64,000 bases of DNA from the NCBI GenBank assembly GCA_019117005.1, contig DXAO01000014.1, forward strand, positions 124,001 through 188,000, in the 5' to 3' direction. Below, one piece after another: positions 113 to 56,530 of the stretch; within the stretch, counting starts at the first letter, position 1, and every line of letters begins with the position of its first letter. A program made the position numbers and the translations under genes. Below the pieces are notes generated by a model. The model saw nothing but the letters and a program-made list of their open reading frames with translations. It searched no databases and was not told the DNA's origin. This stretch comes from Candidatus Collinsella stercoripullorum. Its GTDB lineage: Bacteria > Actinomycetota > Coriobacteriia > Coriobacteriales > Coriobacteriaceae.

Positions 113-3100
113 TCAGCTCGGGTCGGGGCGCCTGTGTGCGGTCGCCGCAACGGCGATGCCTCCGGCGGCGGTCGCTGCGAGCAACAGCGCGATCGGGAGG
201 ACGGCCGTCTGATCGAGCAGGGGGACGACCGTCAGGGGGACTTGGACCACCTCGTCCTCGTCATGGTCTTCCAGGCGGTCCCCGCCGCCGTTGCGGTACA
301 GGTCGAGGCGGGCTCGGTTGACGAGCTCGACGCCGTCGCGAAAGGAGCCGGTGACCCTCAGGTGCAAGACCGCGGGGGAGAGCTCTCCGGCCTGCGGGTC
401 ATCGCCCACGGGTTCCCCCTCATGTTCGCCGGGGATATCGTCCAGGTCGTCATGCGGGTCTTTCAGGTTTTCACGGTCCCATGACCCCTCGCGCGTGGTG
501 AATCCCTCCTCGACCCTTCCGTACTCGAAGCGCACCGCCACGACGCGCTCATCTTCGAGCAGTCCGAGGTCCGCGACCTCAAGGTCCCGAGGCTCCGTCG
601 TGCTGACATCGCGCTTCCACAGCCGCCATCCCGTGTAGTCGAGGACCCGCCCGTCGCCACCGATCTGATCGGTGACCGACGGGTCGCGCAGCCAGGGGTT
701 TTCATGGCCATCGTCCAGCGTCGCGTTCGCGTCGGACTGCTCGGGGTCGGCGTCCTGCCGGTTCGTGCGGTACCACACGTTCATCTTGCCGTCGAAGTCT
801 CCGCGTGCGCGCGGGGTCGTGATCCCCTCGAGCTCCGCAAAACCCTGTTCGGCTCCGTCGATCTCATCGGTCATGGTGAACTCGTCGACCCATGTCGAGC
901 TCGTGTTGCGCAGGTCGATGCTGTAATCGTATCGCCCTTCCGCGGAGACGCTCACCGATGCGGTGTTCCGCCCGTCGCCGTTCTCGCTCGTATCCGATGC
1001 GACGGGGTCGGCGATCTCCTGCCGCTTGTCCACCTCTCCCGACACCTCGACGGGCTCGTCGTACATGGTGACCGTCTGCACATCCCCGGTCTCCTCGACG
1101 GTGAACTCGACTGCCGTCGCCTGATCGTAGGTGCGCGGGGTGATGAGCTCGACGAGCGTGTAGGTTCCCGGTTCGAGCATCTCGATGCGATGGGGCTCAC
1201 TGCCCGAGGTCCACGACTCGATCATGTCGCCGTGCTCATCGATGATGGCGAGCTGCGCTCCCGGAAGCTCCTCCTCGTCAGTGATGTCGCGCTTCGAGAT
1301 ATCGACCTTCGTGACGTCGTCCTCGACGGTGATCGTGGTGTGCCCTGCTCCGTCGACCGTGCCGTCATCCGCGACATGGAACTCGACGACCGCGTCGTTC
1401 ACCAGATATCCCGCAGGGGCCTCGACCTCGCGCAGGCGGTAGGTGCCCGCCTCCAGGTGCCCGAACCGTATCCTCCCCTCATCGTCGGTCGTGTAGCGCT
1501 CCGTTTCCCCGTCTTGCCGCTTCTCACGGGGACCGGGGTCCTCCTTCACGCGCTCCAGCTCGAAGACGGCGCCGGGAACCGCGACCCCCTCTGCCCCGAG
1601 CCTGGTCTTCTCGATATCGACCCGCGTCGGTTCGTCGCTCGCCTCGACACGCGCCTCCACCACGGGCGTCTGCCGGTCCTCGTAGGAAAGGGTGAACGTC
1701 CTCGGTGTGGGATCGAGCATGTGGCCGGCGGGCGGTTCGGTCTCCACGAAGGCGTATATCGCGCTCCCGTCTCCCAAAGGAAGCTCGGAGGTCGTCGCGG
1801 TGCCGTCCTTGCCGGTGGTCACATGGTCGAGCACCTCCCCGGAACCCGCCTGGAGGGAACCGGTGGGGGAGTAGATGTCCTCCTGCGCCACGACGTCGTA
1901 TTCCGCGCCTTTCAGGGTCTTCCCGTCCTCCGAGCAGGTCTTGACGATCGTCGCCCTGCCCTTCGCAGCCTCGTTCTCGACGGAGATCACGGTGATGGGT
2001 TCGGTCGACCCCGCCTTCACCTCGAAGGGGATGTCCTCATCCGTCACGATATAGGGTTCGGGCGCCGCGACCTCCCTGATGAGGTAGGAACCGGCCCTGA
2101 GCAGCTCAGGCAGCGTGACCGATCCCGTCTCGTCGGTGGTGAAGACATCGGTCTCCACATGGTTGGGGTACCAGCAATCCTGGGAGAGGGGGTCTCCGTT
2201 CTCATCGAGGATCTGGAAGGAGAACCCGGCCAGCGGGATGCGCTCATCGGTCGCGGCATCGATCTTGACGAGCTGCAGCCGCGTCGCCACCACGCGGTTG
2301 TCCAGGATGTAGCGGAGCGTGGCCCCATCCGTGAGCTGCTCGGAGCCGATCTTCCATTCACCGATGGGCTCGAAGCCCTCCGGAACCGTCGACGGGACCT
2401 CCCGGACCGTATAGCCCGCACGGTCGTATGGCAGGGCGCCCGCTATGCCGTCGGTACGGTCTCCCTCACCGAACCACAGGCCCTCGGTGGTGGCGTACCC
2501 GTCGTCCCCGGTGGTGATGGTCCCCACTACGTCGTCGGTGGTGTTCGAGACGATCTCGAAGGACACGCCGGCGGCAGGGTCCTTGAGCTCGGAGCCGTCC
2601 GCGCTTCCGTCCTCAAGGAACTTGGCGATCTCGATATCGAAGGCGATCGGGTTCTCAGCGAAGTCATGTTCCGGCATCAGCGTGAGCTCGGCATCGCCGT
2701 TCAGGTCGTCCGGCGTGACGGTGTATTCATGGACCGTCTCGTCGAGCACATAGCCTTCCGGCGCCTTCGTCTCGGTGATGCGGATCGTGCCGAGCGGGAT
2801 CTCCCCGAACTCGATTCGGCCGTCGGCATCGGTCTCCCCGGTCCTTTCGAACCCGGGGGTCGAGACGGATACGAGCTTGTAGCGAGCGCCTTCCAGCGTC
2901 GCCCCCGGCTGGGCAATGCCGTTCGTCGCGGCGTCCCGCTTCGCGACGACGAGCGTGAAGGTCGCCGGCTCGTCGGGAAGCTCGACGGTCGAAGGGGTCA
3001 TGCCCGTCGTGAACTCGATGCGCTTGTCGTTGGGCTTGAATCCCGCCGGAGGCTCGGTCTCCAACGCGTAGTAGCGTGTATTCGGCTGGAGCTGGCAGGA

Positions 3101-4435: not shown

Positions 4436-4510
4436 GCGGGCATCGCCAAGTGGTAAGGCATCAGCTTCCCAAGCTGACACTCGCGGGTTCGAGTCCCGTT
4501 GCCCGCTCCA
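4436..4510 (+). tRNA. tRNA-Gly (anticodon CCC)
   Basis: This is a complete 75-base cloverleaf with CCA encoded. The acceptor GCGGGCA pairs with TGCCCGC, the anticodon loop TTCCCAA gives anticodon CCC, and the T-loop is TTCGAGT. The 3' end from the T-loop onward is repeated downstream at 4673. Confidence 0.95.
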
Positions 4511-4713
4511 GGAACTTCAAGGCACCGGCGACGGTGCCTTTCCCGTTTCCGGGCCCATCTCGGGGACTCGAACCCGATGGGGTCGCGAGGCTGCGGGAAA
4601 GCGCGAGAGTTCCCCAGCGAGCGCGCGAGGGGGCCGCAGGCCCCCGGAGCATGCGGGCGCCGCAGGCGCGCGCGAGTCCCGTTGCCCGCTCCAGGAACTT
4701 CAAGGCACCGGCG
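4490..4713 (+). repeat. tRNA-linked hairpin unit downstream of tRNA-Gly (183-bp period)
   Basis: A perfect 41-base direct repeat (4490-4530 and 4673-4713) runs from the tRNA T-loop through the CCA end into the left arm of the terminator. Between the copies lie an inverted copy of the tRNA T-arm (4563-4576, GGGACTCGAACCCG) and three hairpins: 4590-4617 with a GCGA-containing loop, 4629-4645 (GGGGGCC/GGCCCCC, loop GCA) and 4657-4669 (GCGCC/GGCGC, loop GCA). The same layout follows tRNA-Lys and tRNA-Ser. The second tRNA piece is only a 3' fragment and cannot be a functional tRNA. Confidence 0.9.
4519..4547 (+). terminator. terminator of tRNA-Gly
   Basis: The stem GGCACCG/CGGTGCC with a GCGA loop (4521-4538) is followed by TTTCCCGTTT. 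Only its left arm is carried into the downstream duplicate. Confidence 0.75.
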
Positions 4714-4737: not shown

Positions 4738-5017
4738 TTCGTTTTTCGGAACCTGGCACGGAATCGGTGTTTGGGGGAGGGTCATCTCGAACCCAGTCCG
4801 AAGAACAAATATCGCTTTGTCCGGAATGAGCGTTTGGTCCGCTTCAAATCGAACGAAAAGGGGTTGGACCGCATGCATCGGCGGCGTCCCGGCACCTGAA
4901 AACGATCCGGGAGCACGGTTTGGCGGCAGATGGTGGCCCGCCTGCCGGGCTTCCGGGTGGCGGACGGCGCCGGGCCTCCCCCAAACACCGATTCCGTGCC
5001 AGGTTCCGAAAAACGAA
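4738..5017. repeat. 280-bp element with perfect 43-bp terminal inverted repeats
   Basis: Arms 4738-4780 and 4975-5017 are perfect reverse complements over 43 bases. Each contains CGGAACCTGGCACGG and a GTTTGGGGGAGG end. The roughly 190-base interior has no credible reading frame. This is the form of a non-autonomous (MITE- or REP-like) element. No transposase is nearby. It lies just upstream of the purB promoter region. Confidence 0.85.
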
Positions 5018-5153
5018 TGTGAACCCACCGCGAAGGGCGATGTCCCCGCAGATGCCCGTGCATGTGCGATTGACGCGGGTACCTGCACATCCGTGCCGAT
5101 AGCGTATACTCGAACGGTACCGGCAAGCGCACCGCGTCATCAAAGGAGCTTTC

Positions 5154-22116: not shown

Positions 22117-22192
22117 GGGCCGTTAGCTCAGCTGGCAGAGCAGGGGACTTTTAATCCCAAGGTCTAGGGTTCGAACCCCTAACGGCCCACCA
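22117..22192 (+). tRNA. tRNA-Lys (anticodon TTT)
   Basis: A complete 76-base cloverleaf with CCA encoded. The acceptor GGGCCGT pairs with ACGGCCC, anticodon loop CTTTTAA, T-arm GGGTTCGAACCC. A -10 box TACAAT lies at 22102-22107, leaving nine bases to the tRNA. No clear -35 is seen. Confidence 0.96.
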
Positions 22193-22408
22193 CAGGTACG
22201 AGAGGGCCTCGGCGACGGGGCCCTTTTGGTTCCGGGCTCCGTGCGGGGTTCGAACCGATGAGGTCGCGAGGCTGAGCGAACGCGCGAGCGTTCGCCAGCG
22301 AGCGCGCGAGGGCGGCGGGAGCCGCCCGGAGCGCGCGGACGCCGCAGGCGGACGCGAACCCCTAACGGCCCACCACAGGTACGAGAGGGCCTCGGCGACG
22401 GGGCCCTT
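22172..22408 (+). repeat. tRNA-linked hairpin unit downstream of tRNA-Lys (183-bp period)
   Basis: A perfect 54-base direct repeat (22172-22225 and 22355-22408) runs from the T-loop through CCA and the whole terminator. The copies are 183 bases apart, the same distance as at tRNA-Gly. Between them are an inverted T-arm copy (GGGGTTCGAACC near 22244) and three hairpins: GCGAACGC-GCGA-GCGTTCGC flanked by GCTG/CAGC, GGGCGGC/GCCGCCC, and CGCC-GCA-GGCG. The core is clearly homologous to the Gly and Ser units. Confidence 0.9.
22203..22226 (+). terminator. terminator of tRNA-Lys (first copy)
   Basis: AGGGCC pairs with GGGCCCT around a GCGA-type loop, followed by TTTT. The arms are repeated at the end of the downstream unit (22386-22409), where CTTCTTAT follows. 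Confidence 0.65.
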
Positions 22409-26729: not shown

Positions 26730-27123
26730 ACCGGCGGCGCTTCGCGCGCCGGTCCCGCTTCGGGCGGCTCCGCCGCCCTCGCGCACTGCGCTGGCAAAGA
26801 CGCTCACGCGCTTTGCGCAGCTCCGCGCCCTGCGGGTTCGAATCCCTCTCGCCCTCGGCTGAGAGGAGCTCCGGGCCTCGGAGGATTACCTTGTTGATAG
26901 GGGTGGCTGGCGGAGAGAGAGGGGACGGGGGGATGAGGCTGAGGGATATCCGCCGGGCTGCGCCCGGCTCCCGCTTCGGGCGGCTCCGCCGCCCTCGCGC
27001 GCTGCGCTGGCAAAGACGCTCGCGCGCTTTGCGCAGCTCCGCGCCCTGCGGGTTCGAATCCCTCTCGCCCTCGGTTGAGAGGAGCTCCGGGCCTCGGAGG
27101 ATTACCTTGTTGGTAAGGGTGAC
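26730..27123 (-). repeat. two tandem tRNA-linked hairpin units downstream of tRNA-Ser (216-bp period)
   Basis: Read on the minus strand after tRNA-Ser there are a spacer, an inverted T-arm copy (GAGAGGGATTCGAACCC), three hairpins (GCAAAG..CGC-GCGA-GCG..CTTTGC, GGGCGGC/GCCGCCC, GCCGGGC/GCCCGGC), then a second 3' tRNA fragment (26908-26923). The whole pattern then repeats. Copies are offset by exactly 216 bases (for example CCCGCTTCGGG at 26754 and 26970) and differ at only a few positions. The last unit has a diverged third hairpin and no final tRNA fragment. The core matches the Gly and Lys units. Confidence 0.88.
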
Positions 27124-27213
27124 TGGCGGAGAGAGAGGGATTCGAACCCTCGGAACGCTCGCGCGCTCAACGGTTTTCAAGACCGCCGCATTCAACCGCT
27201 CTGCCATCTCTCC
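27124..27213 (-). tRNA. tRNA-Ser (anticodon TGA)
   Basis: A 90-base class II tRNA with a long variable arm and CCA encoded. GGAGAGA pairs with TCTCTCC, the anticodon loop is CTTGAAA, and the T-arm is GGGTTCGAATCCC. A -10 box TATCAT (minus strand, 27224-27229) lies just upstream. The order tRNA-Ser, tadA, SRP RNA is seen in several Gram-positive groups. Confidence 0.95.
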
Positions 27214-29669: not shown

Positions 29670-29790
29670 GGCGCCGAGCGCGCTCGATGGGTTCGGGTGA
29701 CGATATGTTCCGAATCTGGTCAGGTCCGGGAGGAAGCAGCCATAAGGAGCCTCTGACGGGCACCCGGATCCATCGAGCGCGCTCGGCGCC
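29670..29790 (+). ncRNA. ffs: bacterial small signal recognition particle RNA (4.5S type)
   Basis: A 121-base rod-like RNA. The ends pair perfectly (GGCGCCGAGCGCGCTCGATGG with its complement at 29770-29790). The Ffh-binding domain is present: GGTCAGGTCC, GGGAGGAAGCAGCC, then CTGAC. It works with Ffh in co-translational targeting of membrane proteins. CTTTCTTTTT directly follows as terminator. The position after tadA is a common arrangement. Confidence 0.95.
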
Positions 29791-56208: not shown

Positions 56209-56530
56209 CGCCCCGCCTCGGCAGCCGGGCGCCGCGGCCTGCGGTGCCGTATCCGGCGGGGCCGGTCCTCCCCGATGCGGGGCGCCGGCCCCGTGCCCGC
56301 GCGCGGCATCCGGCTCGCGGGTACCGCGCCCCGCCGCCGTTCGCCGACGTCGAGCGTTACGTGCGTGTTTCCGATGCATCCGAGCTGGTAATCCGGCCCG
56401 ACCCGCGGTAAGGTTGGACACTGTGCGCGTAACTTTCTCGCATTAGGTTGCAAGGGGGAGGGGAATGGGTCCCCTCCGGTTGCGTCGCACGGAAGGGGTC
56501 ATACGCACAGCAACTGGGAAGGAACCGATC
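56209..56530 (+). other. intergenic region upstream of the amino-acid importer
   Basis: A hairpin CGGGGCCGG/CCGGCCCCG (56257-56293) may terminate the epimerase gene. The AT-richer stretch 56360-56450 probably contains the importer promoter (TTGGAC near 56411). No known riboswitch is recognised in the leader. Confidence 0.4.

Follow-up and report, generated by a model that had tools for sequence, protein, structure and literature searches.

RtT-like units with a locus-matched inverted T-arm segment at the tRNA and tmRNA tails of Collinsella

The RtT RNA (rttR) of the tyrT repeats has to our knowledge stood as an isolated curiosity of one E. coli operon. REP palindromes of the RAYT/REPIN type are short GC-rich hairpins that are dispersed over many intergenic regions and mobilised by a Y1 transposase, and the T-loop of tRNA genes is a common integrase site. 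RNA from the tail of a tRNA precursor could also act on its own, as exemplified by 3′ETS-leuZ (a tRNA 3′ external transcribed spacer), a case for which we know of neither a repeat nor an inverted tRNA copy. In the E. coli RtT system (Rfam RF00391, annotated length about 171 nt) the repeated sequence lies behind a tRNA and includes a direct copy of the tRNA 3′ end, and an inverted copy of the tRNA end closes a multi-hairpin fold, GGGGAAGGAT pairing with ATCCTTCCCC of the repeated tRNA end. One published tool classes rttR as REP-bearing (PMC12306157).

In the window, the whole 64,000-nt stretch of Collinsella DNA that was analysed, ARAGORN calls three tRNAs (Gly, Lys and Ser). All three are followed, in the same order, by a terminator-like hairpin, an inverted T-arm segment (named invT in this analysis), GC-rich hairpins and a direct copy of the tRNA 3′ end (Table 1). 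The Gly invT, GGGACTCGAACCCG, matches 14 nt of the tRNA-Gly T-arm exactly when read in reverse complement; the corresponding segments are GGGGTTCGAACC for tRNA-Lys and the 17-nt GAGAGGGATTCGAACCC for tRNA-Ser. A simple terminator scanner did not call the Gly terminator, the T-run of which is short. Two further structured RNAs score above the Rfam threshold in the window, a Corio-PBP RNA (56423-56496) and a bacterial small SRP RNA (29684-29779). About 25 nt behind the Gly direct repeat lies a near-perfect inverted repeat (4738-5019), whose two arms, TTCGTTTTTCGGAACC... and its complement, measure about 43 nt each. A related motif, CGTTTGGGGGA, was seen behind the Leu-cag and Val-tac units (L038, L024), and this repeat type is another dispersed repeat at tRNA tails.

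Table 1. Features at the three tRNA loci of the window
Feature	Position	Strand	Basis
tRNA-Gly (CCC), host gene of the unit	4436..4510	+	ARAGORN; Rfam RF00005
41-nt direct repeat, copy 1: T-loop, 3′ T-stem strand, acceptor 3′ strand, CCA, terminator start	4490..4530	+	
Gly invT: P1 5′ strand (about 4563-4569) plus junction and P2 strand	4563..4576	+	
Gly five-way-junction unit, P1-P5	4563..4680	+	fold; model R1, 108.7 bits
41-nt direct repeat, copy 2; first bases are the P1 3′ strand	4673..4713	+	
tRNA-Lys (TTT)	22117..22192	+	ARAGORN
54-nt direct repeat, copy 1, T-loop through terminator	22172..22225	+	
Lys invT	22245..22256	+	
Lys five-way-junction unit	22245..22362	+	fold; model R1, 113.9 bits
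54-nt direct repeat, copy 2; first bases are the P1 3′ strand	22355..22408	+	
tRNA-Ser (TGA)	27124..27213	-	ARAGORN
Ser invT, 17 nt	27050..27066	-	
Ser unit 1	26943..27062	-	fold; model R1, 46.4 bits
tRNA-Ser 3′ end copied in direct orientation, from the T-stem 3′ strand to the CCA; lies between units 1 and 2	26908..26923	-	
Second Ser invT, 17 nt, identical to the first (unit 2)	26834..26850	-	
Ser unit 2, without a 3′ copy behind it	26737..26846	-	model R1, 34.8 bits

The Collinsella units are RtT-like tRNA tails that are new in their core, in the range of tRNAs concerned and the inclusion of tmRNA, and in a closing helix (P1) that is matched to the locus and carries the T-loop complement. 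The inverted segment of the E. coli RtT spans only the 3′ T-stem strand and the acceptor, without the T-loop, whereas invT includes the complement of the T-loop. The cores differ as well. In three Collinsella loci (L028, L035, L038) RF00391 gave no match up to an E-value of 5, compared with 133-138 bits for the E. coli copies; it gave no match at its gathering score in 20 loci or in the window, and no Rfam model matches the units. The E. coli matches listed (15) are all annotated as RtT, with a median of 3 places per genome; in the genome containing the window, labelled G000, an invT lies behind 18 of 51 tRNAs, several of the 51 being at contig ends. The units share with REP palindromes the short GC-rich hairpins in intergenic DNA, but all 14 unit matches in G000 lie at tRNA tails and are accompanied by a locus-specific P1 and direct repeats. 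Likewise, their direct repeats resemble the attachment sites of tRNA-targeting integrases in running from the T-loop to beyond the CCA; unlike such sites, the repeats enclose less than 200 nt without an element gene (in the window and at the Phe sites described below), and the enclosed sequence has a conserved RNA fold and an invT.

The invT begins 47-57 nt past the tRNA end in G000 (first column of a 19-nt window), and it follows the tRNA next to it. The sequence-only reading had described it as a locus-specific reverse complement of the adjacent T-arm, which was confirmed at all three loci of the window: none of the 42 other distinct T-arms of G000 fits better, with ties numbering 3, 1 and 0. 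When all 18 G000 loci were compared with local and other tRNAs, the match to the own T-arm at positions 57-65 was 7.61 of 9, against 5.88 with shuffled tRNA labels, and 0 of 10,000 shuffles scored as high. Of 102 selected loci, 94 were retained as a curated set that spans 22 genomes of Collinsella and 23 kinds of tRNA; the 8 removed include two real units in which GAAC is altered (G013 Val and G015 Ala), and the rest look like noise. Among the tRNAs of this set that deviate from the consensus at position 59, in the T-loop, 39 of 40 have an invT matching their own base and none has the consensus invT. The corresponding own matches were 16/16 at position 60 and 4/4 at position 57, and 33/48, 30/50 and 11/22 at positions 64, 65 and 63. 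Where one isoacceptor differs across genomes, invT fits its own tRNA at 82 of 108 differing positions and the other tRNA at 3. Finally, a scan of 120 genomes of the order found GTTCGAGTCC with GGACTCGAAC 60-90 nt behind it at 53 places (36 genomes) and GTTCGAATCC with GGATTCGAAC at 128 places (43 genomes), a matched total of 181 which may include a few convergent tRNA pairs, compared with a single place in one genome for the mismatched combination. At 20 fetched matched places, tRNAs on both sides were called at none.

Given these data, neither chance nor a constant element carrying a universal T-loop complement retains any appreciable probability. TTCGAACC is, by eye, complementary to nearly all tRNAs, as such an element would have it, but the variable positions 57, 59, 60 and 62-65 follow the own tRNA, and the label permutations together with the matched and mismatched pattern counts rule this explanation out. 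The inverted segments thus do not fit the single consensus that would have spoken against locus specificity. The match is mainly to the 3′ half of the T-arm, that is, the T-loop plus the 3′ T-stem strand. Mirroring of the T-arm, as originally proposed, holds mostly for these parts; for the 5′ T-stem strand, tracking by the complement is weak beyond GAACC (in G000 alone, 262 of 10,000 shuffles scored as high) but real.

The unit, about 118 nt in length, folds as a closed five-way junction in which P1 is formed by invT and the next direct copy, and P2-P5 are hairpins; GNRA-like loops and GA-rich internal loops, as classified by eye, are frequent in P2-P5. Folding of 13 G000 units gave a P1 closing several hairpins in most, and the fold of the Lys unit reached a z of -5.5 relative to shuffles. 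A model, R1, built from six G000 units returned 14 places in G000, every one behind a tRNA and on the same strand, and first units begin 51-74 nt past the tRNA. In an alignment of 104 units (101 distinct) 95.8% of the cells are paired, 39 of 40 pairs show change on both sides, and covariation amounts to 0.410, compared with 0.130 for shuffled and at most 0.058 for slid alignments; the alignment was fitted to the model, so that the counts lean toward structure and the slid controls are the better yardstick. In the same alignment every helix shows compensatory change, P1 included, which on its own is 93.7% paired with compensatory change in 7 of 7 pairs. G-U cells number 111 and A-C cells 35, against column expectations of 243 and 192; this excess of G-U over A-C suggests that the tRNA-sense strand folds as a single strand, most likely RNA. 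An invT together with the right copy is present at 69 loci.

We consider it probable, with moderate confidence, that invT provides the 5′ strand of P1, the helix closing a structured RNA element at the tRNA tail, and that the duplicated T-arm strand provides the 3′ strand. Each unit consists of a direct copy of the host tRNA, running from the T-loop through the 3′ T-stem strand, the acceptor 3′ strand and the CCA to the terminator, followed by a short spacer, the invT and the core of hairpins P2-P5; the next direct copy contains the T-stem strand to which invT is complementary, and pairing of the two closes the five-way junction. Since P1 takes its 3′ strand from a duplicate of the host tRNA, invT has under this reading to be complementary to that tRNA, which accounts for the locus specificity, for the mirroring of mainly the 3′ half of the T-arm and for the covariation of P1. 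In agreement, invT tracks the tRNA with a z of 17.9 at the P1-forming positions, compared with 5.0 for the 5′ T-stem strand. Selection for pairing, one of the two possibilities raised from the sequence, is supported in some form. The element may act as an RNA in the tRNA sense, produced by read-through of the tRNA terminator, and the folding or processing of this RNA may be what keeps it; the terminator-like hairpin that precedes most units makes transcription of the unit less certain. We lean towards the element being a selfish passenger rather than serving the cell.

Not all of the evidence points to the downstream copy as the partner of invT. When 93 precursors were folded by minimum free energy, invT had the upstream T-arm as its partner in 79 and the downstream copy in only 4, and folding as a precursor gained on average 9.2 kcal/mol over separate folding. 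The universal T-loop complement, for which P1 alone has no need, is kept in invT even where the downstream copy lacks C56-A58. Furthermore, in the 60 cells at which the downstream copy departs from the tRNA, it is often the tRNA that invT fits; most of these cells are at positions 56-58, which may simply lie ahead of the start of the downstream copy. Good invT segments without a 3′ copy are found behind Ser-gct and Arg-cct of G023, and at a threshold of 15 of 18 no 3′ copy was detected in 11 of 12 tested invT loci, among which L227 has a weaker copy. The precursor folds, the kept T-loop complement and the loci lacking a 3′ copy weaken an account in which pairing of P1 through the 3′ copy is all that counts.

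The same observations bear on the proposal that the T-arm is sequestered in the precursor. Here invT would unfold its own T-arm in read-through precursors, or the T-arm would compete with the 3′ copy, so that the tail reports or controls tRNA maturation. The precursor folds with their energy gain, the T-loop complement retained without a counterpart in the 3′ copy and the invT loci without such a copy all agree with it, as does the extension of the complement into the acceptor stem in families f5 and f6 (L261 is palindromic at 42 of 45 positions). However, RNAfold takes no account of tRNA tertiary contacts and modification, and the tRNAs folded alone have their T-stem in 51 of 93 cases and are misfolded in 42. 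The effect is also hardly specific to the locus: the T-stem is kept in 7 of 93 folds with the own invT and in 16 of 93 with an invT swapped in from other loci, which likewise abolishes it in most. The 5′ T-stem positions 51-49 track weakly, the inverted segment of the E. coli RtT has no T-loop complement, and truncation of the unit may account for the loci without a 3′ copy. Pairing between T-arm and invT in the precursor is possible, as the folding suggested from the sequence indicates, and has partial support from the comparative data; we regard sequestration as an unlikely explanation of the feature. Somewhat more doubtful still is a broader version, a lineage-wide, self-addressing RNA family at tRNA and tmRNA tails that acquires a T-arm-complementary address at each new site and acts either as a switch coupled to tRNA folding or as a retro-mobile RNA priming on the host tRNA. 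In this version pairing among T-arm, invT and T-arm copy is exclusive, and correct folding of the nascent tRNA would therefore decide whether the five-way junction forms. In view of the covariation, the E. coli case and a tracking that is much stronger for the 3′ strand, we attribute the locus specificity mainly to P1 and see in T-arm pairing a possible alternative or addition.

R1 matches 22 of 24 Collinsella genomes and 0 of 15 genomes of other genera in the order, and core-pattern matches in named genomes (45 stretches) fall in Collinsella species and close Coriobacteriaceae. In 91 chosen sources R1 found 104 units, 101 of them preceded on the same strand by a tRNA or tmRNA; of the three remaining units, one (L095) follows, by eye, a tmRNA sequence that was not called. 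Units stand behind tmRNA in G013, G015 and G023, where the T-arm stretch GAGTTCGATTCTCCGCG is mirrored, by eye, as CGCGGAGAATCGAACTC. The units that mirror the tmRNA T-arm (L087, L116, L095) imply that tRNA identity is not required, and in family f21 (L225) a 14-nt inverted match likewise lies behind tmRNA. Of 396 Actinomycetota genomes searched for the inverted segment of one T-arm type, 29 have it, namely 8 of the 9 Collinsella genomes and 21 of the remaining 387. Among 20 fetched loci from other families of the order, 11 are followed by a 3′ copy of at least 17/20, and 18 of 19 loci tried parse as units, most with P1 closed by the 3′ copy, one locus not being parsed; in a set of 21 loci, four (L226, L236, L251, L252) have no called tRNA and were left unjudged. 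In family f5 the complement runs through the acceptor stem, giving long palindromes. At L255, L257-L259 and L261 the tRNA 3′ end, the terminator and the inverted 3′ end together make up palindromes with arms of up to 45 nt, which include the acceptor and partly the CCA. Family f28 (L228-L233) has the GGATTCGAAC motif behind several tRNA terminators in what looks like a self-paired, T-arm-like hairpin and not a copy of the own tRNA. No 3′ copy was found in this family; its inverted GGATTCGAAC motifs barely extend past the searched 10 nt and may be something else.

Filled and empty sites were compared at closely related tRNA-Phe loci. The empty site (G023) consists of the tRNA, the terminator, TTTTAT and TGAGGGC, and in the filled sites (G010, G007, G003) TTTTAT is followed by spacer, invT, core and a repeat from the T-loop through TTTTAT before TGAGGGC is reached. 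The difference is exactly one unit plus one direct repeat, and would represent either gain or precise loss, between which it does not distinguish. Such a difference, together with repeats that begin in the T-loop, would also be expected of attL and attR of tRNA-targeting integrases, the unit being a decayed or mini integrative element. Against this reading stand the occurrence of one core family at more than 20 tRNA kinds plus tmRNA within one genus, the compensatory pairs and G-U excess as an RNA-type constraint, and a unit size of about 180 nt that leaves no room for an integrase gene; we regard it as very improbable.

Cores appear to have moved between loci. Those of G000 Lys-ttt and Thr-cgt differ by 2.9%, and those of G015 Gly-ccc and G000 Arg-cct by 3.0%; in core pairs less than 10% apart at different tRNAs, invT fits the own tRNA in 244 of 332 comparisons and the other in 25 (the pairs are not independent). 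Near-identical cores with a locally matched P1 indicate that cores spread and that P1 is local. The nearest neighbour of 88 first units is at the same RNA locus for 32, in the same genome for 23 and in neither for 33, compared with 4.2 and 7.1 expected for the first two, so that cores are both inherited with the locus and spread. Copying or gene conversion among tRNA and tmRNA tails could account for the spread of cores, the flanks and P1 remaining local. Two routes would give this: conversion of cores between old units, the crossover lying close to TTCGAAC and the T-loop, or copying of the local T-arm as a new unit forms. The last units of arrays are often truncated at their far side.

Shared cores with local flanks would also suit an origin by snap-back synthesis, in which a strand switch at the terminator hairpin during replication or repair synthesis led to reverse copying of the tRNA 3′ end; the feature would then be mainly a scar of unit formation. 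The terminator-centred palindromes of L255, L257, L258, L259, L261 and L264, in which 30-42 of 42-48 ungapped positions are complementary, point the same way, although terminator stems are themselves palindromic and part of these counts is trivial; some tracking by the 5′ T-stem strand is a further point in its favour. Still, a scar would decay, yet invT follows tRNA changes between species (82 of 108, compared with 3) and P1 covaries, and snap-back alone leaves the direct copy and the hairpins unexplained. We therefore entertain it only tentatively. Reverse copying of the local tRNA, the other possibility raised from the sequence, is suggested by the long palindromes of other families and may plausibly have formed the units. 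It can hold for the origin while P1 explains the upkeep, and its probability overlaps with that of the P1 reading.

No description of this feature was found in the literature covered, open-licence PMC papers. The RtT plan, with different cores, extends to about one third of the tRNA genes of one gut genome, to tmRNA and to other families of the order, so that a single anecdotal case becomes a class, whose many natural variants can be used for testing function and mobility; the matched closing helix is a clean genetic handle. If the address is written at insertion, a new mechanism is involved; if it evolved by selection, the tail has a function that nobody has assigned. Such tails can also mislead the annotation of tRNAs and attachment sites, as in L034, where ARAGORN called a false tRNA-Ala (1156-1233, minus strand) on the reverse strand of a unit. 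In one Collinsella genome (L202) three tRNA-Arg(acg) genes lie in tandem, two with full units and with a fragment of a further unit between.
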